NCBI GenBank assembly: GCA_013214025.1 | Contig: JABSRN010000140.1 | Coordinates: 1-64,000 of the forward strand | Source of the DNA: Polyangiaceae bacterium | GTDB lineage: Bacteria; Myxococcota_A; Polyangia; Polyangiales; Polyangiaceae | Reading direction: 5' to 3' | Length of the DNA: 64,000 nt | In this document: in pieces, positions 816 through 20,710 of the stretch | Position numbering within the stretch: position 1 is the stretch's first letter | Layout of the letters: each line of letters begins with the position of its first letter | The notes under the pieces: generated by a model | Told to the model about the DNA's origin: nothing | The model's input: only the letters and a program-made list of their open reading frames with translations | The model's database searches: none | Program-made: the position numbers and the translations under genes

Positions 816-1269
816 GGGTAGGTCTCCGCGCAAGAGCGGCTGCGCTCGTTGAAATTGCATCGCTCAATCTCAAATGACCGGCCAACCAACCGAAGCTGTA
901 TTGGCCAGTGAAGGAATAAATTTAGCTATGTACAACTAGCTGCGCGACCCGGGACTGTCGAGGAGTTTGACTCGTCCCCACGCGTCAAACTTCCACGTTT
1001 TGGCAGGAAATGTTCCCGGCTTGCTGCACCATTGGCGGGCGGAGTGGAAACTTCTAGCGTCACGAGGAAGGACCCCACCCGTCTGCGGGGTAGGTATTCA
1101 CCTTCCCGACCTATCCGCTGAGCCCCCTACCACCCAAGCGGGCGCGGCAGTCGCCACGGGGCAGTCATCCCAGTGTCGTTCAGCCACCTTGAATGTTCGA
1201 TTCTCCCGAATACGCGACAATAGGGATATCGCGCAACGCACCAATTGGGGATCAAGCCCTCGGAGACCC
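816..1269. other. Intergenic region, no gene recognised
   Basis: This spacer lies upstream of the cysteine-rich lipoprotein (minus strand) and beyond the 3' end of the HNH-like gene. Short open frames occur on both strands, but none has a recognisable domain, a good ribosome binding site or the G/C third-position bias of the neighbours. The promoter of the lipoprotein gene should lie just right of 815. I could not identify convincing promoter boxes. Confidence 0.5.
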
Positions 1270-4425: not shown

Positions 4426-5652
4426 ATGCGAGCCCTCGTATTCGACAACAGCTTTCCTCGTCTCGCCGCGACCAAGATCCTGAGTCAGATCACCCCGCGG
4501 GCCTTCGTGAGTCGCATCGCTCCGATCCAGCTCGTTGACTTGCCGGATCCGACACTGCCAGCGGATGACTGGCTGACCATTCGTACCCAGTGGTGCGGCA
4601 TGTGTGGCAGCGACTACAAACAGGTGTTCCTCAACGGCTCCACGGACAACCCGATGACGGCGTTGGTCACCTTCCCCCAGGTGCTCGGTCACGAAGTCGT
4701 CGGCATCGTGGAATCTGTCGGGCCCGGCTGTAACGAGCGCAAGGTGGGCGACCGCGTCGTGCTGAATCCGTGGCTCAGCTGCGTGACTCGCGGCCTGGCG
4801 CCCTGCGAGTGGTGCCAAAAGGGCGAACTCGCTCAGTGCCTCAACTTTACCGAGGGGCACATCGCCGCCGGCATCCATCACGGCAATAGCTCGGACGCCA
4901 CCGGTGGCTTTGCGCAAATCGTCCCGGCTCACGAGTCCCAAGCTATTCCTATCCCCAACGACATCAGCGACGAACACGCGGTGCTCTCGGATCCCTTCTC
5001 GGTATCGCTACACGCGATATTGCGGGAACCACCGCCGGAGAACGGCACGGTATTGATTTACGGCTGCGGCACCTTGGGGCTCTCCGCCATTGCGACCCTC
5101 AAGGCTCTGTACCCCAGCGTGACTGTGTACGGCGTGGGCCGCTACGAACATCAGAAGCGATTAGCTCTGCAGTTTGGGGCGACGGATGTGTTCGAACACA
5201 AACCCGAATCAGCTGTGGTCGATGCCGTGGCGAAAGCCGTTGGCGCCAAGGCCCAAAAACCCTGGCGTGGATTGCCCATGCTGAACGGCGGCGTTGACGT
5301 GATTTACGACACCGTGTCATCGCCGAAAACGCTGGAAGTCGGCGTTCGCGTGACCAAAGCCCGAGGTGCCATCGTGTGCCTGGGCGTGGAGATCCCCAAA
5401 CGTTTCGAGTGGACACCGCTATATTTCAAGGAACTCCGCCTCGTGGGCAGCAACGCCTTTGCCATCGAAGAATACAACGGCGAGCGCAAACACTCCATCG
5501 AGTGGTACTTCCAATTCATCCGGGAAAAGGGCATCGATATCACGCCGATCATCACCCACCGCTTTTCGTTAGAGGACTACAAAACGGCGTTCATGCACTG
5601 CTTCGCCCAGGGCGAGAACGAAGCCGTCAAGATCCTATTCGAATACCCGTGA
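4426..5652 (+). CDS. Zinc-dependent medium-chain alcohol dehydrogenase
   Basis: The protein has 408 aa. The catalytic zinc site shows Cys57 in CGMCGSD and the GHE motif at 88-90. A structural-zinc-like cysteine set is partly kept (Cys119, Cys127, Cys130, Cys138). The Rossmann nucleotide site is YGCGTLGLSA (about 212-221). GGAG sits 5 nt before the ATG. The family oxidises alcohols or reduces aldehydes with NAD(P)H; the substrate is not predictable here. It stands as a single plus-strand unit, convergent with the MEKHLA gene. Confidence 0.85.
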   Translation: MRALVFDNSFPRLAATKILSQITPRAFVSRIAPIQLVDLPDPTLPADDWLTIRTQWCGMCGSDYKQVFLNGSTDNPMTALVTFPQVLGHEVVGIVESVGPGCNERKVGDRVVLNPWLSCVTRGLAPCEWCQKGELAQCLNFTEGHIAAGIHHGNSSDATGGFAQIVPAHESQAIPIPNDISDEHAVLSDPFSVSLHAILREPPPENGTVLIYGCGTLGLSAIATLKALYPSVTVYGVGRYEHQKRLALQFGATDVFEHKPESAVVDAVAKAVGAKAQKPWRGLPMLNGGVDVIYDTVSSPKTLEVGVRVTKARGAIVCLGVEIPKRFEWTPLYFKELRLVGSNAFAIEEYNGERKHSIEWYFQFIREKGIDITPIITHRFSLEDYKTAFMHCFAQGENEAVKILFEYP

Positions 5653-5680
5653 AGCGGCGACGTCGCTGCCAGAGTGAAGG

Positions 5681-6151
5681 CTAGAGGAAGGTCCACTGCT
5701 GATAGGTGGCGGCCTGGCCAATACGGGTACCGGCTTCGTCGTACACATTCCAGCAGGTGACGTCGTCGATGCGAAAGCGACGACCGCTCGCGCTGATGCG
5801 TACGCCGGAATGCCCCGTCGCAAAACCCTGGGTCTCGACTTCTTGGAGGAAGCAGTCCCGCGCCTCCTGGGCCATGGGCTCGGCGCATTTGTGGGACTCC
5901 ATCGCGACGAAGGCGTCCCAGGGCAGCTCCCATAACTTGAGAGCGAGGGCGTTACCGTAGTTGTAGACCGGCACGTTGGCCGCCGTGTGGGAGAGCACGA
6001 CGTAATCCGCCTCGAATAGGCGCGCCGCGCGCTCGATGAGGGAACCCGGCGCGGTTAACTCGCGACCCAACAATGACTGATAGGAGCGCAAGCTGTGCTC
6101 GGAGAAAGAGAGCACATCCCGCTGTTGCCAAGGGGCCGAGTCAGTGGACAT
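5681..6151 (-). CDS. MEKHLA-domain protein
   Basis: The protein has 156 aa and consists almost entirely of a MEKHLA domain (PAS-like fold). Diagnostic stretches are SYQSLLGRELTAPG, FEADYVVLSHTA, YNYGNALALKLWEL, AEPMAQEARDCFL and GVRISASGRRFRI. Stand-alone MEKHLA proteins are small cytoplasmic proteins of unproven function. The PAS relationship suggests ligand or redox sensing. The gene converges on the alcohol dehydrogenase (28-bp gap) and is divergent from the cytochrome lipoprotein. No strong ribosome binding site precedes the ATG. Confidence 0.82.
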   Translation of the reverse strand: MSTDSAPWQQRDVLSFSEHSLRSYQSLLGRELTAPGSLIERAARLFEADYVVLSHTAANVPVYNYGNALALKLWELPWDAFVAMESHKCAEPMAQEARDCFLQEVETQGFATGHSGVRISASGRRFRIDDVTCWNVYDEAGTRIGQAATYQQWTFL

Positions 6152-9037: not shown

Positions 9038-11146
9038 CTAGGCTCCGGTATCGCTGGGCGAAACACCGGCCGCCAACAACAGCTCGACTACGGACTCCGG
9101 ACGACGCAGGGTACCGAGCTTCAGCGCATCGGACACGGGAGTCCCCATCAGCACCCGCTTGATCGGCACCTCAAGCTTCTTACCGCTGAGGGTCCGCGGA
9201 ATGTCCGCCAGCGCCACAATGCGATCCGGAACGTGTCGAGGAGACAGCCGCACTCGGATCGTGCGGCGAATGATCTCGATCAGTCCGGCTGGCACGCTTG
9301 GCTCGGCAGTGCCCGGTGGGCAGGAGCCGTCCCCCAGCACCACGAACAGCCAAAGTCCACCAGCCTCCCCAACCTCCGCCGTATCCACCACCAGGCTGTC
9401 ACTAATTTCCGGCAGCTCCTCCACCACCCGATAAAATTCACTGGTGCCCATACGCACGCCACCGCGATTGAGGGTGGAGTCACTGCGCCCGGAAATCACG
9501 AGGGTTCCGTCCTCGCCAATTTCGATCCAATCACCGTGGCGCCACACGCCCGGAAAAGTATCGAAGTAGCTGGAGTGATATCGCTCGCCCTCAGGGTCGT
9601 TCCAAAACTTTACTGGCATGGACGGCATGGGAGCCGTCAGAACGAGCTCGGCTGTCTGGGCGCGAACACTCACGGCGTTGTCGTCGAATGCCTCCACCCG
9701 CGCGCCCAGGGAGGCGCAAGCGCTCCTACCGGACGTGACGGGCAACCAGGGGCACGAGCCGACAAAGCCGGTACATACATCTGTGCCGCCACTGAGGCTC
9801 GCCAGGCGCGCGTCCTTCGATACAGCCTCGTACACCCACTCGAAACCTTCCGCAGGCAACGGTGCCCCGGTGGATCCGATGCCTCGCAAGGTCGACAGAT
9901 CGAACGCGCTCAGATCGAGCCCGGCTTTGCGGCAAGCCATGAGATAGGGAGCGCTGGTTCCAAAGTAATGCAGACGCTCCTCGCTCGCCATGCACCAGAG
10001 GGCCGCGAGATCCGGAAACCCGGGGCTGCCGTCGTACAAAACTACCGTGGCACCGAGCAACAGCGCACTCACAGAATAGTTCCACATCATCCAACCGGTA
10101 GTGGAATACCAAAAGAAGCGATCCCGGGCGCGAATGTCTGCGTGCAAGCCGAGCTGTTTTAGATGCTCAAGCAGGATCCCCCCGTGACCGTGCACGATGG
10201 CTTTTGGCAATCCCGTCGTGCCGGATGAAAAGAGTATGTACAAAGGATGGTCGAAGGGCACGCTGGCAAAGCTCAGCGGCTCGGACGCCAGCCCACGACC
10301 CAAAGAGTCGTAGGCTGTGTGAACCGGTGTGCCCGACGTCGCTGTCGGGCGCTCGGTAGACGTCGAATCCGGCTGTGCTCCGCACTCAACGATCTGCTCT
10401 ACGCTGGGGAGGCCCGCCAGTATTGTCTCTAGCTCGCCGCTGCGGTCGTAGGGTTTGCCCGCATGGGTGTAGCCGCTAACGGCAAAAAGAATTTTCGGAG
10501 CGATTTGGGCTAAGCGGTCCACCACGGTGGCGGCACCGAACTCAGGGGGGCAACTTGACCAGATGGCTCCCAGGCTCGCACAGCTAAGGAATCCGACGAT
10601 GGCCTCCGAACTGTTGGGCAGGTACGCTGCGACTCGATCCCCCGACACTACCCCCGCCGCACGTAGGCCCGCCGCCACCCGCCGAACTTCCCGGCGAAGC
10701 TCACCGTAGGTCCAGCTCTTCCGCCGTGAGCTCTCCGTGCGTTCGATAATCGCGACATCGTCGTCGGGAGCGCGTAGTGCGTGTTCGGCATAATTGAGCG
10801 TGCCGCCGGGAAACCATCGGGCACCTGCCACCCCAGCGTCGGGACCCGGTTGATACGGGCGTTCCGCACTCTGGTGAAAATTCACCTCAAAGTAGTCCGC
10901 GATGGACGACCAAAAATCGCCCAGCTCCGTGGTCGACCACTGCCACAAGTCAACGTAGGCCTCGGCGTCGCACGCCGTCCCATCCCCGGCAGGGCGTTGG
11001 TAGCGAGCATTGCGAACGAGGTACGCGACATAGTCCGCCAAGCGTGAATCGGCCGCCTGTTGCGCGCTCGGCCGCCAGAGCACACGCCGCGCGGTGGGGG
11101 CCGCGCCCGGCAAGTGTGCCGTATCTGGTTTCACGGAATCCCCCAT
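9038..11146 (-). CDS. aacS: Acetoacetyl-CoA synthetase
   Basis: The protein has 702 aa, slightly longer than the usual 650-670 residues. This ANL-superfamily enzyme activates acetoacetate to acetoacetyl-CoA with ATP. The P-loop is YILFSSGTTGLPKA (about 304-317), the A5-type motif is GSTGAPLP, and the SLSGGTDVCTGFVG stretch and WRHGDWIEI ... GRSDSTLNRGGVRMGTSE are typical of the AacS subfamily. Near the C-terminus SGKKLEVPIKR carries the adenylation lysine. The ATG directly abuts the stop of the upstream membrane-protein gene, so it is the third gene of a minus-strand operon. Its pairing with an amine oxidase and a polytopic protein is unusual. Confidence 0.93.
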   Translation of the reverse strand: MGDSVKPDTAHLPGAAPTARRVLWRPSAQQAADSRLADYVAYLVRNARYQRPAGDGTACDAEAYVDLWQWSTTELGDFWSSIADYFEVNFHQSAERPYQPGPDAGVAGARWFPGGTLNYAEHALRAPDDDVAIIERTESSRRKSWTYGELRREVRRVAAGLRAAGVVSGDRVAAYLPNSSEAIVGFLSCASLGAIWSSCPPEFGAATVVDRLAQIAPKILFAVSGYTHAGKPYDRSGELETILAGLPSVEQIVECGAQPDSTSTERPTATSGTPVHTAYDSLGRGLASEPLSFASVPFDHPLYILFSSGTTGLPKAIVHGHGGILLEHLKQLGLHADIRARDRFFWYSTTGWMMWNYSVSALLLGATVVLYDGSPGFPDLAALWCMASEERLHYFGTSAPYLMACRKAGLDLSAFDLSTLRGIGSTGAPLPAEGFEWVYEAVSKDARLASLSGGTDVCTGFVGSCPWLPVTSGRSACASLGARVEAFDDNAVSVRAQTAELVLTAPMPSMPVKFWNDPEGERYHSSYFDTFPGVWRHGDWIEIGEDGTLVISGRSDSTLNRGGVRMGTSEFYRVVEELPEISDSLVVDTAEVGEAGGLWLFVVLGDGSCPPGTAEPSVPAGLIEIIRRTIRVRLSPRHVPDRIVALADIPRTLSGKKLEVPIKRVLMGTPVSDALKLGTLRRPESVVELLLAAGVSPSDTGA

Positions 11147-12277
11147 CTACTTGAGGATGCGATCTGCGGTGGCTGGCTGCAAGGACTGGACCCCGAGTGC
11201 ACGCTGTTGGGACGGCACCGCCGCCGTATCTGAGCGCCGCCAAATCATGCCGTCCAACACGTAATGAGTCGCCTGGGGCAACGAGAGCAGCGGCACCACG
11301 AACACCCAGAGCCCCGGATCGATCGCGCCGCCCCCGCCACCGAAGAGCCAGGCGCGGTCCTGCCAAATCAAACGGTTCCACAGAAATTCTTCGATCCCCG
11401 CGAGCAGCAACAGCACTGCCAGAAAGGTCGCCAGGCCGCCGCGAACGATCTGTGCGCCGGCGCCCATCCGCCCATCGCGCTGACTGGCCAGGGCGTACAT
11501 CCACAACAACGCGACGTAGGGCACACCGTGGGCGATCACGTTGGTAACTGAGAAATCGAAGTCGTTGGGGGCCCAGACGATGCCGCCGTACCAAACAAAC
11601 GCTGTTCCGAAGACAACGACTGACTTGCCCAATCGCAGGCCTTCGCCGGCCCGCCACAGCGCGGACTGCCGGGCGACATAGACCAACATGGCAACAACCC
11701 ACGCCGCGCGCGCCCATGGCAACACCGCGTCACAAGCCGGCTGCAGGCTCGCGATAAAATCCCCGTCCAGGAACCAGTGAATATCCATGGCCCCCAGGTG
11801 AGCATGCCAGTGCACGATGGGGTAAAGCGTCGAGCTGTACACCGCTGCGTTGTCTACCCAGCGATCCATGGTCTTGCCGCTGGTTTCGCGGGCGCGATAG
11901 ACGGCCACCCATCCCACCTGCTGTTTTACGAAGTGCAGCACCGCCACGTAGGCGAGCAGTCGCCAAAAGGTCAACGCCCCGTGGGCGTACAGCGCGACGC
12001 CCACCGCGTAGACGGCCAGTGGCACTCCGAAGTAACGCAGGGGTTTGCGCCGCAGCTCATGGGGATCCAGATAAGTACGGAACAAGGTCGCGTAGACGTG
12101 GGCGACATCCACACCCAGAACGAATAGCAGCCAACCCCACACGGGCAATGGCCCCGGGCTGACGCCGGCCAGGTGCGCGGCGAACACCACCGCGAAGGCG
12201 AACACGACGCTGCCGCCGAATACCGACAGATCGAGCTTCGGGCTCCACAGCCAGGGTCCGAACGAGCGAGCGGGCAT
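11147..12277 (-). CDS. Polytopic (about 9-TM) membrane protein, family unknown
   Basis: The protein has 376 aa. I chose the ATG at 12277 because it overlaps the upstream stop as TGATG; a TTG five codons earlier is an alternative. About nine hydrophobic segments can be seen. Histidines cluster near membrane edges: HVYATLF, LHFVKQQVGW, HWHAHLGAMDIHW, AHGVPY and ATHYVLDGMIW. Such patterns occur in membrane-bound di-metal or haem enzymes, but I do not recognise the family and assign no reaction. It lies between the flavin amine oxidase and aacS with no spacing, so it is co-expressed and probably functionally linked to the oxidase. Confidence 0.75.
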   Translation of the reverse strand: MPARSFGPWLWSPKLDLSVFGGSVVFAFAVVFAAHLAGVSPGPLPVWGWLLFVLGVDVAHVYATLFRTYLDPHELRRKPLRYFGVPLAVYAVGVALYAHGALTFWRLLAYVAVLHFVKQQVGWVAVYRARETSGKTMDRWVDNAAVYSSTLYPIVHWHAHLGAMDIHWFLDGDFIASLQPACDAVLPWARAAWVVAMLVYVARQSALWRAGEGLRLGKSVVVFGTAFVWYGGIVWAPNDFDFSVTNVIAHGVPYVALLWMYALASQRDGRMGAGAQIVRGGLATFLAVLLLLAGIEEFLWNRLIWQDRAWLFGGGGGAIDPGLWVFVVPLLSLPQATHYVLDGMIWRRSDTAAVPSQQRALGVQSLQPATADRILK

Positions 12278-13941
12278 CAGCTGTCGATCCAACTGTCGAA
12301 CTGTTGCCCGCGGGAACGCTGGATGCCCTCGGCGGCTCGTACGCCGTGATATTGCGCTTCTTCGAACAAACCGACCCCCGAGAGATCGCTATGGGCGAAG
12401 TGCACGCGCCCGTGAGGCTTTTGCACTTGCTGACGAACGGCGGCCAGCCCCGGAACCGGACGCACCATGCCGTGGCCCCAGCGCCAAACGTCAAGACGCT
12501 GGGTCAGAGCCCGCAGATCCGGGTGAGCCCGCGATAGATCGGTCAGCACCGATTCGGCGAAGTCTTCGTGTTTCATCGCCAACAAACGCCGCCGTCCCTC
12601 GGCAGGCTCGGTCTGACAAAACGGATGATAGTACGTAAAGATCGTCTCGCCTCGGTCTCGCAGCGCCTGATGCGTCGCCACCACGTACCCCAAGGCGTCG
12701 CTGTCGTAGATCACGTTGTCCCAGGCGAGCGGGTAAGCACCAGCTTCGGGGCGTTGCTTCAGGTGGAGGTTGGCAACCATCCAAGGGCTATAACTAAAGA
12801 GCTTGTTGTGTTTCGGTGCCTGGCGGCGCCACGGTCGTAAGATGCGGGTCGCGATGAAGCGCGGCACGGCCAACACCACATGATCCGCCCGCAAGGTGTA
12901 GCTGCCCCCGTGAGGCTCCGTGACCAGGAGATCCACGTATTGCTCACTGGGCACCACCTCGCGGACGACACAGCTACGACGAAGCCGTTTGCCCGCCACG
13001 CCCGCCATATGTCGGGTGAGACGGCCGTTACCCTCCGGCCAGGCGATAAACGGTGCGGACTCCTGCTCGGGCTCTCGGACTCGGGAACAGAAATAGAACA
13101 TCAGCGCCCACGCGCTGGTCTGAGCGAGGGTGGTGCCAAAATCGTCGCGGCAAGCGTAGCCGAGGTACCAAAGCAACCGGGCTGACGAGAGTCCGTGTTG
13201 TTCACACCACTGGGCCGCCGTCAGTTTGTCCAGAGCGAGCACTTCTGTGTCGTCCGAGGCATAAGCGATAGGAATGGTAAATGCCGGCCGCCCCCGCGCA
13301 TCACGCCACTTGACCCAACCCGTGACCAACGCTTCGAAGCGGGCCCGCTGTTTGAGATCGCCAGCACTGGCACCCCTGCTCGGGTAAAGACCCGCCTGCC
13401 AAGCGCCGTCGATAAAGAGCCGCTCCTCGGGTTCGCGCACCAGCAGCTGTTCGTGGGCCACCGGCTGCTGCCCTGGCCGTTCTGGCTCGAGGGCAGAGAT
13501 CTCCCGGAGCAACAACGTCAGGGCCCGGTTATGACGACCCGGCACCGGCACGTAGTGCGCCCCCCAGGGATAAGGCACGACGCCATCACTTCCGTAAGCG
13601 GCCGTTCCCCCGGCCTGAGACTCGAGCTCGAGCAACTCAAAGTCGGCGGATCCCAAGTGCTGCAACCGCCAGGCGCAGGACAAGCCGGCGACCCCGCTCC
13701 CCACAATGACTGTGCGCACCCGGCGCCGAACGGGTGGCAACGCCGACGGAGGCGACTGGCGCAGTGTGTGGCCCAAAGGAGCATTGCCGCCCCGAATCGC
13801 TCCCGACACCTTCGGGCTGGAAATACGGTCGCAAGCCGAAGCCAGGGGGGCGCCAATCAGGAGGCCGAGCGCGTCGCGTCGCGAGAGAGAATTATCCGCC
13901 AAAGCTCCGGGTCCGTGCTGGTAGGAGCCGCACCCTAACAC
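12277..13941 (-). CDS. Exported FAD-dependent amine oxidase-like protein
   Basis: The protein has 554 aa if the GTG at 13941 is used. A TTG at 13902 would remove 13 residues and places the twin-arginine signal at the N-terminus, so the start is uncertain. The signal reads SRRDALGLLIGAPLASAC, with arginines 21-22 and a possible lipid Cys37. The dinucleotide site is VIVGSGVAGLSCAWRL (about 78-93), followed by ELLELESQAGG. The family (amine oxidase/protoporphyrinogen oxidase/desaturase-like) uses FAD to oxidise amines or desaturate substrates. A Tat signal means it is folded with FAD in the cytoplasm and then exported. It heads the operon with the polytopic protein and aacS. Confidence 0.8.
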   Translation of the reverse strand: MLGCGSYQHGPGALADNSLSRRDALGLLIGAPLASACDRISSPKVSGAIRGGNAPLGHTLRQSPPSALPPVRRRVRTVIVGSGVAGLSCAWRLQHLGSADFELLELESQAGGTAAYGSDGVVPYPWGAHYVPVPGRHNRALTLLLREISALEPERPGQQPVAHEQLLVREPEERLFIDGAWQAGLYPSRGASAGDLKQRARFEALVTGWVKWRDARGRPAFTIPIAYASDDTEVLALDKLTAAQWCEQHGLSSARLLWYLGYACRDDFGTTLAQTSAWALMFYFCSRVREPEQESAPFIAWPEGNGRLTRHMAGVAGKRLRRSCVVREVVPSEQYVDLLVTEPHGGSYTLRADHVVLAVPRFIATRILRPWRRQAPKHNKLFSYSPWMVANLHLKQRPEAGAYPLAWDNVIYDSDALGYVVATHQALRDRGETIFTYYHPFCQTEPAEGRRRLLAMKHEDFAESVLTDLSRAHPDLRALTQRLDVWRWGHGMVRPVPGLAAVRQQVQKPHGRVHFAHSDLSGVGLFEEAQYHGVRAAEGIQRSRGQQFDSWIDS

Positions 13942-14005
13942 CCCGCTACCGGGCCCGGTGCGTCGATTGTAGTGTCCGCCCGCCAGTTCGTGTTACACAG
14001 GATAC

Positions 14006-14227
14006 GTGATTGATATGGAGCCGTTCCTGCAAACAATGGTCACTACCCTCGCGTACTGCGTGCTGGGGATCATCATGTTCGGCATCAGCTTTCTGGTGAT
14101 CAACACCATTACGCCGTTCTCGATTCGAAAAGAAATCGAGGAGGACCAGAACACCGCTCTCGCGATCCTCATCGGCTCAGTCATTCTCGGACTGAGCATG
14201 ATCATCGCCGCCGCCATCGGTGGCTAA
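14006..14227 (+). CDS. DUF350 small membrane protein
   Basis: The protein has 73 aa and two transmembrane segments (about 9-33 and 49-71), joined by ITPFSIRKEIEEDQNTA, the hallmark of DUF350. The GTG at 14006 is preceded by AGGA; an ATG three codons later is an alternative. DUF350 genes commonly lie next to membrane spermidine-synthase-like genes, as here: the next gene overlaps by 8 bp. The function is unknown. A membrane subunit or channel-like partner of that enzyme is inferred. It is transcribed divergently from the amine oxidase operon (64-bp gap). Confidence 0.85.
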   Translation: MIDMEPFLQTMVTTLAYCVLGIIMFGISFLVINTITPFSIRKEIEEDQNTALAILIGSVILGLSMIIAAAIGG

Positions 14228-15839
14228 ACTCCCGCCAACCGACGGCACACCCGAGCTAAAGCCCGGTGGCGCCCCCATCGCTTATTCCCAAGCGGACAGT
14301 TGGACCGGCGAGTTACGCCAGCCCTCGGCCAATCTGCTGCTCGGCATCGTGTTCGTCATCGCCACCGCAGGACTGATTTACGAACTCGTCATGGCGGCAG
14401 TCGCTAGCTACGTGCTGGGTGATTCCGTCCGTCAATTTAGCCTGGTTATCGGAACCTACTTGTCTGCGTTGGGCATGGGCGCCTACGCCTCCCGATTTAT
14501 AGGTCGCGATCTCGAAGTAAAGTTCATCGATGTAGAGCTCAGCGCTGCCCTGATCGGCGGCTTCAGCGCCCCCGCGCTCTTTCTTGCGTACAGCTACACG
14601 CCGAGCTTCAGCCTTTACTTGTTTGGCACCGTCATCCTCGTAGGTACCCTCGTCGGACTGGAGCTGCCGCTGCTCGTGCGGATCCTGGAGCGGCAGTTCG
14701 AACTGAAAGAGCTGATCGCCAGAACCCTGAGCGTCGACTACCTCGGCGCTCTGATCGGATCCCTCACCTTTTCGCTCTTCTTGTTCCCCCAATTGGGGCT
14801 GGTGCAATCGAGCCTCGTGTGCGGGTTGCTCAATGCCGCCGTTGCGCTCGCCTCGACCTGGGTGCTCAATGGCGATCCGAAAGCCATGGTTCGCGCGCGA
14901 TTGCGTTCCGTCGTGGTGATCGCGCTACTGGCAACCGGCATCGGTTTCGGCGGCCGCTTCTCCGAACTCTCGGAGGCACCGCTCTACAACGGTGAGGTAC
15001 TCGTCGCCAAACAGTCCGCCTACCAGCGCATCGTCGTCACCGAAACAGCCGGGCACATCTCGCTTTTCTTAAACGGCAAGCTCCAGTTCGCTGGCGTTGA
15101 CGAGAGCATTTATCATGAGGCTCTCGTGCACCCCGCCATGGCCAGCACGGCTGTCCCCAAGCGTATACTCATCGGCGGCGGCGGCGACGGACTCGCGGTG
15201 CGCGAACTGCTGCGCTGGCCCGAGGTAGAAAGCATCACCCTGGTGGATCTCGATCCCGCCATGACCGATCTCGCCCAAAATTTTGGACCGCTTCAGCAAC
15301 TGAACGAAGCCGCTCTCAGCGACCCCCGGGTGACGGTACAAAATGCAGACGCCTTCATATTCTTGGCGGAATATAAAGGCGCTCCATTCGATGTGATGAT
15401 CTTCGATTTTCCGGATCCGAGCAGTTACGGTCTGGGGAAGCTCTACAGCATGAGTTTCTACCGCCGTGCCGCCAAACACCTCGCACCAAATGGCAGCCTC
15501 GCGGTTCAATCGAGCTCCCCTTATTATGCCCCCAAGGCTTTTTGGTGCGTCGTCAAAACGCTAGAGGACAGCGGATTCAACGCTCGGCCCTACCACGCCT
15601 TTGTGCCCTCCTTCGGCGAATGGGGATACGTGCTCGCCAAGCCGAATTCCTTTCGTCCATTCCGTTCGCTGGACTCGGCTCCCGGTCGTAAAGATCTGAC
15701 GGACGAAAAACTCGCGCTGCTGTTCTCGTTTCCGGAGGATATGAAGCCAAGAGTGACCCGCGCCAACCGCCTGAACAACCAGGTGCTGGTCTCTTACTAC
15801 GAAAGCGAGTGGGGCCTGCCGCCCGTCACGACCTATTGA
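14220..15839 (+). CDS. Membrane-embedded spermidine-synthase-like aminopropyltransferase
   Basis: The protein has 539 aa with a GTG start overlapping DUF350 by 8 bp. Residues 35-245 contain about seven transmembrane segments. The C-terminal half is a spermidine synthase fold: decarboxylated-SAM site ILIGGGGDGLAVREL (316-330), acidic LVDLDP (341-346), NADAF (376-380) and the catalytic DFPDPSSYGLGKLYS loop (396-410). The soluble family transfers aminopropyl groups to polyamines. Versions with an N-terminal membrane domain paired with DUF350 are known only from genomics, and their acceptor is unproven. Key Asp residues are present, so it should be active. The enzyme domain would face the cytoplasm, where decarboxylated SAM is found. 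Confidence 0.88.
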   Translation: MAKLPPTDGTPELKPGGAPIAYSQADSWTGELRQPSANLLLGIVFVIATAGLIYELVMAAVASYVLGDSVRQFSLVIGTYLSALGMGAYASRFIGRDLEVKFIDVELSAALIGGFSAPALFLAYSYTPSFSLYLFGTVILVGTLVGLELPLLVRILERQFELKELIARTLSVDYLGALIGSLTFSLFLFPQLGLVQSSLVCGLLNAAVALASTWVLNGDPKAMVRARLRSVVVIALLATGIGFGGRFSELSEAPLYNGEVLVAKQSAYQRIVVTETAGHISLFLNGKLQFAGVDESIYHEALVHPAMASTAVPKRILIGGGGDGLAVRELLRWPEVESITLVDLDPAMTDLAQNFGPLQQLNEAALSDPRVTVQNADAFIFLAEYKGAPFDVMIFDFPDPSSYGLGKLYSMSFYRRAAKHLAPNGSLAVQSSSPYYAPKAFWCVVKTLEDSGFNARPYHAFVPSFGEWGYVLAKPNSFRPFRSLDSAPGRKDLTDEKLALLFSFPEDMKPRVTRANRLNNQVLVSYYESEWGLPPVTTY

Positions 15840-16039
15840 GGAGCGAGTCTCCCCCGTGTTGACGCCGGCCCCTACCCACCTAAGGCGCGCCCCTGGAGCC
15901 TCGGGCCCTCGTGTTGAGCTGCCGGTGGGTCCTTTGAGATTGTGGCCGGTCCCTCCCCCTCGGAGCATGCGCTTCGAATCATCTTCCCGGATTGGCCAGC
16001 GACCCTTGGCGTCCGCTGGGGGTGTGGTAGTGAACCCGC
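15840..16039. other. Intergenic, about 200 bp
   Basis: No gene is recognised. The interval should hold the end of the DUF350/aminopropyltransferase transcript and the promoter of the M16 pair, but I see no clear hairpin with a T run. Confidence 0.4.
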
Positions 16040-17557
16040 ATGATATCGCCTGTCGTAACGCGAACCCACCGCAGCCTTCGGTCTCGTCCCACCTGGTTGA
16101 GCACCGTCTCACTGATCGGTCTCGGCCTAGTGCAGGCCTGCACTCCGCCGGCGCCTGCCACCGCCCCTCAAGCCGAGCCAGCCCCTGTCGTCGTGCCGAG
16201 TGCCCCCGAAGCCCCGCCCACGCCCATGCTAGCGCCCCCGAGCACGACCCCGGGAGCCCTGACTCTATCCGTCTACCGAAGCACCCTGTCGAACGGGCTG
16301 CGTGTTGTGCTCAACCCCGACCACAGCGTGCCAACCGTCGCCGTCTGCGTCACCTACGACGTTGGATCTCGCAACGAGCAAAAGGGACGAAGCGGTTTCG
16401 CTCACCTCTTCGAACACATGATGTTCCAGGGGTCCGACAATGTGCCGAAGGGCGGACATTTTCAGCTCATCACCGCCCGCGGCGGCAATATGAACGGCAC
16501 CACGTCCAGCGATCGAACCAATTATTACGAGACCCTGCCCGCCAACGAGCTGGAGCTCGGGATTTGGCTGGAAGCCGACCGAATGAAGTCCCTCGCGGTG
16601 ACTCAGAAAAATTTCGAAAACCAGCGCGCGGTCGTCCAAGAGGAATACCGCATGCGTATGTCGAACCGCGCCTACGCCCTCGGCATGAGGAAGATGGACG
16701 AACTCGTGTTCCAGGGATACTGGCCCTACGAACACGACACCATCGGAGCCATGGCAGATCTCGATGGCGCTCAACTGGAATGGATTCAGGCCTTCCACCA
16801 GAGCTATTACGCGCCCAACAACGCGGTGGTCAGCATCTCAGGCGATTTTCAACCTGAGGAGGCTATCGCCCTCGTGCAGAAGCACTTTGGGGATGCGAAA
16901 AATGCCCCCATCCGCGAATACAAGCCGCCGGCATCCGTGCCCTCCCAGCCTGCCGAGCGACACGCCAAGCTAGACGACGTCAACGCCAAGACCATCGGCC
17001 TGTTTTACGCCTGGAATATTCCCCAAAGCCGCACCGACGAGCACTACGCCCTGGAGCTTGCCGCGCTCATCTTGGGCGACGGAGAAACCTCCGTACTCGA
17101 GCAGCAGCTCATTCGGGATCTAGATCTCGCCCAGAGCGTCTGGGTCTGGACGAACGATCACCGGGGCCCCGACTTGTTCGGCTTTCGAGTGGTGCTGAGC
17201 AAAACCGCCAGCCAAAAGGCAGTTCGCAAGGTGCTCGATGAGGCCCTGCAACAACTCGCCACAGACGGCCCGACGAAGGCCCAAATGGACAAGGTGCTGA
17301 CCCGCCTCAAGTCCCATTTTATATTCGGGCTCGAGTCCAATATGTCCCGCGCCAAGCAGCTCGCCAACTACGAGTTGTATTGGGGCAACGCCAGTTTGCT
17401 CAACGAAGAGCTACCGATGTTTCTCAAGGTAACGCCCGAAGCGGTTCGCGACAGCGTCGCCAAATACCTGATCCCCACCAGGCGCTCGGTAGTGGAAGTA
17501 CACCCTGCAGCGCCCGTAGCCCCTGCCCCCCCGACCCCCTTGAAGGGAACCCACTGA
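16040..17557 (+). CDS. M16 family zinc metallopeptidase lipoprotein, catalytic subunit
   Basis: The protein has 505 aa. A lipoprotein signal ends at LVQAC (lipid Cys34), with a Pro/Ala linker to about residue 72. The inverted zinc motif HLFEH (His122, Glu125, His126) is intact, and the third ligand is a Glu in VVQEEYRM (about 201-202). The two-lobed M16 fold continues to the C-terminus with the FYAWNIPQSRTDEHY region. M16 enzymes degrade peptides in a clam-shell chamber and bacterial forms often act as catalytic/inactive pairs. The next gene is the inactive partner and starts inside this gene's stop (TGATG). An envelope location is inferred from the signal. Confidence 0.92.
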   Translation: MISPVVTRTHRSLRSRPTWLSTVSLIGLGLVQACTPPAPATAPQAEPAPVVVPSAPEAPPTPMLAPPSTTPGALTLSVYRSTLSNGLRVVLNPDHSVPTVAVCVTYDVGSRNEQKGRSGFAHLFEHMMFQGSDNVPKGGHFQLITARGGNMNGTTSSDRTNYYETLPANELELGIWLEADRMKSLAVTQKNFENQRAVVQEEYRMRMSNRAYALGMRKMDELVFQGYWPYEHDTIGAMADLDGAQLEWIQAFHQSYYAPNNAVVSISGDFQPEEAIALVQKHFGDAKNAPIREYKPPASVPSQPAERHAKLDDVNAKTIGLFYAWNIPQSRTDEHYALELAALILGDGETSVLEQQLIRDLDLAQSVWVWTNDHRGPDLFGFRVVLSKTASQKAVRKVLDEALQQLATDGPTKAQMDKVLTRLKSHFIFGLESNMSRAKQLANYELYWGNASLLNEELPMFLKVTPEAVRDSVAKYLIPTRRSVVEVHPAAPVAPAPPTPLKGTH

Positions 17558-19182
17558 TGAACAGCCTTCGCCCCTCCCTCAGCCTCGGATTTCTCGCACT
17601 GGCAACCCTCCTCAGCTTGCCCATGCTGGCGTGCAGTGCGCCTGCCAAAACACCCGCAGCACAGCCTGCCCCGACCTCTGGAGCGCCGGTTGTGCCGGTC
17701 GCCCTCGCCTACGGCGCCCCGGACACCGACGACGGCACAGCCCCACCAGAAAACCGCGTTCTGCCCCCGAAATCGGGCATCCCGCCGTCGTTTTCCTTCC
17801 CGGCTATTTCCCACTTCGAGCTCAAGAACGGGCTCAAGGTTCGAGTGGTGCAGCGACCCACCCTGCCGATCGCTGACGTCAAACTAGTGTTCCTGAGCGG
17901 AAGCGCGACGGATGGGGGCAAACCCGGCGTCGCTACCCTGGCGGGGGAATTCCTCAAAGCAGGCGGCACCGGCGCCTGGACCAGCCGCCAGCTACTCGAT
18001 CGCGTGGAGTCGCTCGGCTCGGATCTGCGAATTGTCACGAGTCGAGATGCCAGCAGCATTTCCATGAGCGTTACGAAAGATAACGTCGAGACCTCGCTGG
18101 ATCTCATCAGCCAGGTAGCCCGCAGACCAAAATTTTCCGGTTCCGAGTACCGAAAGCTCAAGAAACGCGAAATGGATCGCGTTGCCAGTTCCGCCAAGGG
18201 CGACGCGCGCTGGGCCGCGAACATGGTGTTCTTCCGCGAACTGTTCCGCACGGCCGACGGCAAACACCCCTACGCCAGCTACGACGCAACGACCAAACAA
18301 CTGGAGCAGGTCATGCTCTACAACGCGAAAAGCTGGTACCAAACGCACCTCACCCCGAAAAACGCGTTCCTGGTGGTGACCGGAGACGTCACGCCCGAAA
18401 TCGTGCAGCAAGCGGCGGAAAAGTACTTCGGTGGCTGGAAGGGCGAGGCCCCCAAGCCCCTCCGCTACGCCGAAGTCACGACTCCTTCTGCCATCAGCAT
18501 CTTCCTCGTGGACCGCCCCAAGAGCGCCCAGAGCCAAATCCAAGTGGGGACCTTCGGACCACCGCGTAGCAGCGCAGACTGGCCGGCGCTCAAAGCAGCC
18601 AACCAGGTGCTCGGCGGCGGCGTGGCCGGCAGATTGTTCATGGACGTCCGAGAAAAGCGGTCCTTGGCCTATAGCACCTACTCCTACGTCAGCGGATTCG
18701 CTCACGGTCCCTCCCTCATCAGCCTGAGTGCGGGCACCCAGACAGCAAAAACGGGACTCACACTGAAAGCTCTGTTGGAACACCTCAACAAGATGGGCAG
18801 CGCGCCGCTGGATCCGGAAGAATTGAGCACCGCAACTCGCTACCTCTCGGATGCCTTCTTGCTGCGTCTAGAAACGACAAGAGCCGTCTCCAGCATGACC
18901 GCCAGCCTCGGCATCCTGGGGCTGGGAGACAAGTACTACGACGAGTACCGGGCCGCTGTGACCGCACTCGACGAAGCCACAGTGCAAAGCACGGCCAAGA
19001 AGTACTACGTCGGAGGTCACGCCATCGTAGTGGTCGCAGGAGACGCGGACCGTCTGCAAGGCCCACTCAGCCACTTCGGCCGTGTAACCGTAATCGATCC
19101 CGACAAAGAGTTTTCTGTCGTCAAGACGGTACCGCACAACCCGAAGGCCACCATCGAGCTGAAACGAATCGAAGGCACCTGA
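17557..19182 (+). CDS. M16 family peptidase-like lipoprotein, non-catalytic partner
   Basis: The protein has 541 aa. The ATG at 17557 overlaps the upstream stop, and a lipoprotein signal ends in PMLAC (lipid Cys26). The M16 fold is clear, but the HxxEH zinc motif is missing: the equivalent helix reads LAGEFLKAGG. The substrate-binding Arg/Tyr region of the C-lobe is kept (VREKRSLAYSTYSYVSGF). In characterised bacterial heterodimers one subunit supplies zinc and the other the R/Y pair; this gene and its upstream neighbour fit that pattern. No other role is suggested by the context. Confidence 0.92.
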   Translation: MNSLRPSLSLGFLALATLLSLPMLACSAPAKTPAAQPAPTSGAPVVPVALAYGAPDTDDGTAPPENRVLPPKSGIPPSFSFPAISHFELKNGLKVRVVQRPTLPIADVKLVFLSGSATDGGKPGVATLAGEFLKAGGTGAWTSRQLLDRVESLGSDLRIVTSRDASSISMSVTKDNVETSLDLISQVARRPKFSGSEYRKLKKREMDRVASSAKGDARWAANMVFFRELFRTADGKHPYASYDATTKQLEQVMLYNAKSWYQTHLTPKNAFLVVTGDVTPEIVQQAAEKYFGGWKGEAPKPLRYAEVTTPSAISIFLVDRPKSAQSQIQVGTFGPPRSSADWPALKAANQVLGGGVAGRLFMDVREKRSLAYSTYSYVSGFAHGPSLISLSAGTQTAKTGLTLKALLEHLNKMGSAPLDPEELSTATRYLSDAFLLRLETTRAVSSMTASLGILGLGDKYYDEYRAAVTALDEATVQSTAKKYYVGGHAIVVVAGDADRLQGPLSHFGRVTVIDPDKEFSVVKTVPHNPKATIELKRIEGT

Positions 19183-19247
19183 TCGCTCGATTCTGGCCAT
19201 CCCGGAGTCAGCCCGACCGTTCTCCGTAGAGACTTACCGCCCCGGAG

Positions 19248-20201
19248 TCATCGCGTGTGTCCCCCGTACACTCGCCGAACTTCGACGTAGGTTTGCACAT
19301 GGGCTTGCACCGTGAGCCCGATGGGACGGGTGTAGCCCCCGCCCAGAGAGAGGGCGATAGGCAACTGGCGTCCGGCACAAGCCTCAAGCACCCGGGCGTC
19401 CCGGCGGCGCAATCCCTCCAGACTAACGTCTAGGCGTCCGAGGCTATCGTCCTTGAGCGGATCCACCCCGGCCTGATAGAGGACAATCTCGGGGCTCTGG
19501 GAAAGCGTTGCGTCCAGAGCCTGTTGGACCGCGCGCAGATACTCTTCGTCACCGGTCCCATCGGGAAGCGGGATATCCAGACTCGACGCTACCTTGCGGA
19601 ACGGGAAGTTCTTGTCGGCATGCACGCTACACACGAACACATCGTCTCGGTCGCCGAAGATATCCGCGTTGCCGTTGCCCTGATGTACGTCCAAATCCAA
19701 GATCGCGACGCGACGGACGGCCCCCTCGTGCAGCAGACGCTCGGCAGTCACCGCCAGATCGTTGAACAGACAGAAACCCTCGCCAAAATCTCGCCCCGCA
19801 TGATGGGTTCCCCCGGCAAGGTTCCCGCTCACGCCGTCCCGCAGCGCCGCCCGGGACGCCGCGAGAGATCCCCCCACGCTGGCCAACGAGCGTCGAATGA
19901 GTTGTGGCCCTGGCGGCAGTCCGATTCGACGCGCAGCTCTGGCGTCCAAGGCACCGTTCAGTACGGCGTCGACGTATTCCGTACTGTGCGCCAACACGAG
20001 ATCGTCACGGCGCACTAACGGCGCTTCGAACAGCTCCTCAGGAGGGAGAATGTTCAACGCCATCAGGGATTCACGCAGCAGTCGATACTTCTCAATTGGG
20101 AAGCGGTGCGCCGCCGGCAAATCGATGTGGTGATGATCGCAGTAGAAGATTTGCAACGGGAGTGGCCCTCTCGCGAGTCTCGCGCACGCGCACAGCAACA
20201 T
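19248..20201 (-). CDS. Histone deacetylase / acetylpolyamine amidohydrolase family enzyme
   Basis: The protein has 317 aa. I chose the ATG at 20201 because GGGAAGAG lies about 4 nt upstream and the family start (IFYCDHHHIDLPAAHRFP) follows soon after; the frame is open further upstream. The catalytic His pair is in GGTHHAGRDFG (133-134). The zinc ligands include Asp171 and His173 in LDLDVHQGNG. QAGVDPLKDDSLGR and LSLGGGY are typical. These Zn hydrolases remove acyl groups from proteins, polyamines or acetoin-linked targets. Single-domain bacterial members cannot be told apart by motif alone. The nearby aminopropyltransferase and amine oxidase make an acetylpolyamine substrate possible. Confidence 0.9.
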   Translation of the reverse strand: MLLCACARLARGPLPLQIFYCDHHHIDLPAAHRFPIEKYRLLRESLMALNILPPEELFEAPLVRRDDLVLAHSTEYVDAVLNGALDARAARRIGLPPGPQLIRRSLASVGGSLAASRAALRDGVSGNLAGGTHHAGRDFGEGFCLFNDLAVTAERLLHEGAVRRVAILDLDVHQGNGNADIFGDRDDVFVCSVHADKNFPFRKVASSLDIPLPDGTGDEEYLRAVQQALDATLSQSPEIVLYQAGVDPLKDDSLGRLDVSLEGLRRRDARVLEACAGRQLPIALSLGGGYTRPIGLTVQAHVQTYVEVRRVYGGHTR

Positions 20202-20710
20202 AAACTCTTCCCGTCGCTGCTCGCCATGCCCGCGGCGGGCAGCATTTCCCCTTCCTAAGAATTCGGAAGCCAACTGAACCCAACCCGCCCTTGTGGCGCG
20301 CTCAGCCCTGAGCTGCTGGCCGGTTTGGTGTCCTGGCGCATGTAGTTCTCGGCCCGCGTCGTTTTTGTGAGGAATTAACCTACATTTAACGACAGTTTGT
20401 GCGCCGATCAGCCCACAAAAAACTACCGGCAAATCTCCCGGGCTATGAACAAGCTGTGGATATGCTGCGAATGATCCTGGGGATTTGCTTGGGGTAACTT
20501 GTGTTCAGCATTAGGGATCGGGATGGAAGCCGTGGATGTTCCATAACAAGCTAATCCCCACCCCCCTGGCTGGCGACCTACTGGGCAGCACCCTGGCTAC
20601 CTCCCCCAGATGTTGTGGTTTTTTGTTGCTGTACCACTACAGATTGGGTACACCGTGAGTCTGCTTCTGATTCGAAACCTGACCAGCCAGGCAGTGAATC
20701 GCTGAACAGG

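Follow-up and report, generated by a model that had tools for sequence, protein, structure and literature searches.

A conserved gene module of a membrane SpeE-type aminopropyltransferase, DUF350, a predicted exported flavoprotein and an undescribed ten-helix membrane protein

In a 64,000-nucleotide stretch of DNA from a Polyangiaceae bacterium (assembly GCA_013214025.1, contig JABSRN010000140.1, positions 1 to 64,000; hereafter named the window), four genes encode a DUF350 protein, a SpeE protein with an N-terminal membrane domain, a flavoprotein of amine-oxidase fold (hereafter named AO) and a polytopic membrane protein (hereafter named TM9). These four genes are one conserved genetic module, and an AdoMet (S-adenosylmethionine) decarboxylase and a DUF4178 protein belong to its fuller operon. 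We searched 284 Myxococcota genomes for TM9 and obtained matches in 47, clear in 44, and then the surrounding DNA was retrieved and the window proteins were mapped on to it. The same-strand order DUF350, SpeE, AO, TM9 was found in approximately 25 Myxococcota genomes from many families, often with genes that touch or overlap. Named genomes were scanned with the TM9 alignment, and the best 80 of at least 528 confirmed relatives were examined. Their record titles were those of Myxococcota/Deltaproteobacteria, Acidobacteriota and Planctomycetota, plus one labelled Comamonas, and DUF4178 (identified using Pfam) was located upstream of the operon in these loci, sometimes together with a small membrane-type protein. 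The order DUF4178-DUF350-speE-AO-TM9 was also present in Acidobacteriota and Planctomycetota, and the usual operon in relatives from the three phyla was the collinear speD–DUF4178–DUF350–speE–AO–TM9. In the window this operon is split into two divergent parts. The arrangement of DUF350-SpeE against AO-TM9 is a local rearrangement, and a few genomes of the same family (L034, L035 and L037) have broadly the same one. The original prediction had joined the four proteins into one module, and their recurrence together across three phyla bears this out.

The association between AO and TM9 was analysed further across the 284 genomes. AO was present in 43 of the 44 clear TM9 carriers, and in the only carrier without it (G042) TM9 was located at a contig end. 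A Fisher test of this co-occurrence gave a p value of ~2e-47, which is descriptive only, as related genomes are not independent. TM9 was separated from the rest of the module in 20 genomes, 19 of which still carried AO, mostly beside SpeE; thus neighbourhood alone understates the association. Sorangium cellulosum So ce26, whose genome is complete, has TM9 at ~13.59 Mb and SpeE-AO at ~4.27 Mb, some 9 Mb apart. A set of chance neighbours without any functional link might be suspected from the aacS, M16 peptidase and histone deacetylase (HDAC)-fold genes nearby, which are not conserved neighbours. For the four core genes, however, chance neighbourhood is refuted by the recurrence in three phyla and by the retention of AO where TM9 is unlinked; the idea that the two operons stand together only by chance clearly fails, and its probability is vanishingly small. 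The strict AO–TM9 coupling provides a clear genetic handle, and both the TM9 family and its coupling to AO appear new.

SpeE matched the NCBIfam family NF002956 (PRK03612, membrane polyamine aminopropyltransferase) with 606.1 bits against a cut-off of 472, the match covering residues 29-531 of the protein and positions 11-518 of the 522 in the profile. It also matched PF01564 and aligned with the solved aminopropyltransferases 7xif and 6bq2. The GGGDG motif (residues 320-324), D294, E295, D396 and D399 were invariant in 24/24 homologues, as was P400, which together with D396 and D399 makes up the D-x-x-D-P signature of aminopropyltransferases. The catalytic Asp residues are thus intact, as had been noted before, and their conservation along with that of the GGGDG motif suggests that SpeE is probably an active aminopropyltransferase. 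DUF350 is conserved directly before speE in relatives, and in the window the speE start overlaps the DUF350 end by eight bases. The protein matched PF03994 with 54.8 bits (cut-off 26) over profile positions 3-65 of 133; it is therefore not a complete DUF350 domain but a single 70-residue unit of equal length in relatives, with a conserved PFSxRKEIEEDQN motif. In two genomes of one family (L047 in G233, 5416-6138; L053 in G155, 10478-11197) the module SpeE consisted of the membrane half alone (~240 residues), and both genomes carried a full-length SpeE on another contig. This combination suggests that the membrane domain of SpeE has a separate role.

Of the best 80 named loci, 31 contained an AdoMet decarboxylase-like gene, in most cases immediately upstream of DUF4178, and the ESH motif was present in the encoded proteins where these were read; the genes were identified by reading the sequences and by tblastn searches started from the loci, rather than by a per-locus profile search. 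In an annotated operon of Novosphingobium, this gene bears the name speD. Numerous relatives thus have the enzyme that makes the aminopropyl donor encoded within the operon. In the genome of the window, which is 97% complete, DUF350 and SpeE are adjacent. The AdoMet decarboxylase homologues and DUF4178, a gene that many relatives have inside the operon, are on other contigs, as is a degenerate second SpeE; the ancestral operon therefore seems to be dispersed in this lineage. The window SpeE was by far the best PF01564 match in the genome, the others above the cut-off lying in frames of 251-880 residues, and no free-standing SpeE stood out in this search. On one of the other contigs (L168, G000:C62), weak homologues of AdoMet decarboxylase occupy 866-1246 (+) and ~1300-1690 (−), facing each other; the ESH cleavage motif is kept in one and absent from the other, which is reminiscent of an active/inactive enzyme pair. 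Another contig (L169, G000:C121, 2666-5790, −) carries DUF4178 followed by the second SpeE-like membrane protein, which lacks GGGDG and one catalytic Asp and is likely to be a pseudoenzyme.

AO matched PF01593 with 70.5 bits (cut-off 19.8). The twin arginine (R21 and R22) and the lipobox C37, the latter preceded by alanine, glycine or serine, were invariant in 29/29 relatives, and on this basis AO is predicted to be a twin-arginine translocation (Tat)-exported lipoprotein on the outer side of a membrane. Thus the Tat signal expected for this protein was found in all 29 relatives, and the lipoprotein cysteine has to be added to the earlier description as a Tat-exported FAD amine oxidase. The AlphaFold model of AO (pLDDT 88) had putrescine oxidase (Z 28.6), monoamine oxidase (Z 28) and phytoene desaturase (Z 27.0) as its nearest solved folds, and amine oxidases were top of both structure rankings. 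Putrescine oxidase and the monoamine oxidases (2yg3, 8p84 and 1gos; Z 26 to 29) gave the best fold match, although their identity to AO was 14 to 19% and no lysine residue is conserved in AO. In the 29-member AO alignment lysine was the majority residue in no column, and judging from the alignment the strand at 384-394 (YxPWxVANLHL) is without it. The spermidine dehydrogenase SpdH of Pseudomonas aeruginosa (7d9f-7d9j) shares the flavin amine-oxidase fold, and its N-terminal stretch aligns with the AO profile; however, AO has ~15% identity and a TM-score of 0.59 to SpdH, is a predicted lipoprotein and is tied to SpeE.

No functional family in NCBIfam scored above its cut-off for the 29 AO members. 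HpnE (TIGR03467) was the commonest match across the family, and the best PDB sequence match was protoporphyrinogen oxidase. A grouping with carotenoid desaturases had been named as a possible objection to the module. By fold, putrescine oxidase is nearest to AO with phytoene desaturase close behind, and the carotenoid family CrtI (TIGR02734) was far below its cut-off (17.1 bits compared with 238.1), results that neither bear out the objection nor dispel it. Since the profile, structure and conserved-residue tests disagree, 'amine oxidase' is used for AO as the label of a fold and no substrate is claimed. AO might then be an isoprenoid or lipid dehydrogenase, dehydroxylase or desaturase resembling HpnE or protoporphyrinogen oxidase, in a module that builds a modified membrane lipid and in which TM9 would be another enzyme of lipid modification. 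Such a role would fit the HpnE matches in 29/29 members, the protoporphyrinogen oxidase match, a phytoene desaturase Z score near the best one and the lack of a conserved lysine residue, but the family scores are far below cut-off (39.3 bits compared with 283.1 for HpnE) and amine oxidases lead the structure comparisons. We regard it as rather unlikely.

For TM9, the 44 members gave isolated weak matches only in Pfam and NCBIfam, none above chance, a PDB sequence search gave no match, and Foldseek gave none at E 0.001 or better. The AlphaFold model (pLDDT 91) showed ten long helices, one more than the nine transmembrane segments first assigned to the protein. Structure comparison (VIA), in which model residues 49-373 were effectively compared, gave Z scores of up to 8.0 with helical bundles and ~6 with rhodopsins, a likeness that we took as a common helix arrangement; the lack of structure matches is not proof of a new fold. 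In the alignment of the 44 members, D62, H65, H120, Q124, E301, H343 and D347 were invariant, H163 and H255 were kept in 43/44, and D178 and E302 were nearly or fully invariant, most of these polar residues being inside helices. This conserved pattern of histidine and acidic residues suggests a putative metal or haem site, and the positive residues in the loops suggest that both ends of the protein face the cytoplasm.

These properties of TM9 also bear on a scheme of soluble polyamine turnover, the simplest form of the original prediction, in which AO oxidizes, in the periplasm, the spermidine or related compound that SpeE has made and the membrane proteins have exported. Although the catalytic residues of SpeE are intact, and putrescine oxidase, monoamine oxidase and spermidine dehydrogenase are among the nearest solved folds of AO, this scheme is opposed by the lack of a conserved lysine residue in AO, by the reported failure of such membrane SpeE fusions to replace spermidine synthase and by the fact that TM9 was unlike known transporters in the PDB sequence and Foldseek searches. 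We consider it unlikely.

The explanation that we favour, tentatively, is a membrane-associated aminopropylation module with a redox step at the outer face. AdoMet decarboxylase would supply the donor, and SpeE, anchored in the membrane and paired with DUF350, would move the aminopropyl group from decarboxylated AdoMet to an acceptor in or at the membrane. AO would then act in the periplasm on the aminopropylated product or a related lipid, with TM9 as its membrane partner. The first two of these steps rest on protein families and conserved residues, and the last two on inference from co-occurrence and localization signals. Decarboxylated AdoMet, which is usually seen as a precursor dedicated to polyamines, is very probably the donor here. 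The acceptor is likely to be something other than putrescine, a view that leans on published work. Because transferase and oxidoreductase alike are bound to the membrane, our preferred guess would be that the acceptor is a lipid, or an amine linked to one, and not free putrescine. A literature search on lipid aminopropyltransferases yielded no report of such an enzyme. The chances are evenly balanced that AO acts on the product of SpeE. TM9 may possibly be an electron-transfer partner that passes AO electrons to the quinone pool via a metal or haem site formed by its conserved histidine residues; the alternative, a second metal-dependent enzyme acting on the same substrate, is more doubtful. 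A wider proposal, that an aminopropylated membrane lipid is flipped to the outer face of the inner membrane and oxidized there, and that TM9 founds a new class of metal- or haem-binding polytopic enzymes working with lipid-anchored flavoproteins, is quite unlikely.

Several observations weigh against the favoured explanation. The active-site lysine residue of monoamine- and polyamine-oxidase-type enzymes is not conserved in AO, and the AdoMet decarboxylase homologues in the genome of the window are weak and located on another contig. Furthermore, Novosphingobium has AO and SpeE without TM9. The AO-SpeE pairs of Burkholderia and Gemmatirosa are probably without it as well, since TM9 was found on no plasmid. 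The existence of AO-SpeE without TM9 implies that not every AO depends on TM9 as its electron acceptor.

We know of no acceptor for the widespread class of membrane SpeE fusions. This class is now tied, in three phyla, to a predicted exported, lipid-anchored flavoprotein and to the TM9 family, which is absent from the libraries searched. Because the module genes occur in the cultured genera Myxococcus, Corallococcus, Pyxidicoccus, Archangium, Sorangium and Polyangium, the question of the acceptor can be tested by gene deletion combined with lipid and amine profiling. In the literature searched, few papers named DUF350 together with aminopropyltransferase or spermidine synthase, and DUF4178 appeared in one. 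Li and co-workers (2019, cited in PMC11237479) are said to have described clusters of AdoMet decarboxylase, a membrane-SpeE fusion and DUF350, and such fusions reportedly do not replace spermidine synthase. The type of SpeE fusion and its link with DUF350 are the same here, whereas the flavoprotein and TM9 are not known to have been part of that description.

The module is clearly related to operons reported by Ravi et al. (2024, PMC11237479). Their text describes operons that combine DUF4178 and DUF350 with a SpeE domain joined to a 7TM domain. It also reports AdoMet decarboxylase, DUF350, 7TM-SpeE and a polyamine oxidase from related operons, and it brings up the possibility that other substrates are aminopropylated. 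DUF350 and the membrane-fused SpeE are common to those operons and the window, and DUF4178 and AdoMet decarboxylase are common via the relatives; the window copy differs in being arranged in two divergent units without adjacent DUF4178 and AdoMet decarboxylase. AO is probably the polyamine oxidase of that study. We did not find TM9 named in the text of PMC11237479, and it is added by the present module. Thus the core has been published, while TM9 was not found described, although it could be present unnamed in the supplementary tables of that paper. The same authors propose envelope-stress sensing for the related operons, and the present module could likewise monitor the membrane state or polyamine level and feed a PspA/band-7-like system, catalysis being secondary. 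The DUF4178-DUF350-SpeE core shared with PMC11237479 and the SPFH/band-7 gene that opens the Novosphingobium operon are consistent with this proposal. However, neither band-7 nor PspA, nor the dyad of PspA with the CesT/Tir chaperone that marks one of the published groups, was among the recurrent neighbours of the TM9 loci (no profile search was made for them), and the strict retention of catalytic residues would be needless in a pure sensor. A sensing role is therefore improbable in our view.

The genes listed in the original prediction were each confirmed by the open reading frame (ORF) list, the translations and the profile scans, and their positions in the window are given in Table 1. The spacing of 64 bp between the divergent operons holds if DUF350 starts at GTG 14006, and becomes 73 bp if it starts at ATG 14015. 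From the divergent centre outwards, the order on the minus strand is AO, TM9 and aacS.

Table 1. Positions of the module genes and neighbouring features in the window
Feature	Position	Strand	Basis
aacS	9038-11146	−	ORF list, translation, profile scan
TM9, ten-helix membrane protein, undescribed family	11147-12292	−	Conserved His/Asp/Glu/Gln
AO, predicted Tat-exported lipid-anchored flavoprotein, amine-oxidase fold	12277-13941	−	PF01593
Divergent intergenic region, 73 bp, separating the two transcription units	13942-14014		Sequence reading
DUF350 protein, 70 residues, one two-helix unit	14015-14227	+	PF03994
SpeE, N-terminal membrane domain and C-terminal SpeE domain	14220-15839	+	NF002956, PF01564
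HDAC-fold gene	19248-20432	−	PF00850, 188.6 bits

Downstream of SpeE are two M16 peptidase genes followed by the HDAC-fold gene, which lies 3.4 kb past the SpeE stop with the M16 pair in between, and not 4.4 kb away as first stated. This gene had been placed in the module as an acetylpolyamine-hydrolase-fold enzyme. Although its PF00850 match is strong, no homologue was found near any other module locus retrieved; we therefore rejected it as a module part, and a link to polyamine deacetylation is not supported. The M16 pair was set aside likewise; it is not a conserved neighbour, although a few genomes of Polyangiaceae type (L040/L131 and L151) have it close to TM9. The gene aacS, also assigned to the module previously, was not a conserved neighbour either; a close aacS (53% identity) stands next to TM9 in a single further genome, which belongs to the same family (L036).

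Other neighbours of TM9 were specific to particular groups. In Polyangium, Sorangium and relatives (L151, L085, L086, L133 and L084), DUF350 is located directly before TM9 with SpeE and AO elsewhere, suggesting that DUF350 may pair with TM9 besides SpeE. In Myxococcaceae (L098, L104, L123, L142, L156 and others), TM9 adjoins a trehalose-6-phosphate-synthase-like gene, named by sequence reading, and SpeE-AO is often elsewhere in these genomes. The record labelled Comamonas sp. KCTC 72670 (L157) has a TM9 neighbourhood of the Myxococcaceae type and is probably misnamed. In approximately 20 Acidobacteriota loci, a predicted lipoprotein of ~200 residues, conserved among them, comes after TM9 (for example L126, 1915-2520), and then a PDZ-like protein on the opposite strand.

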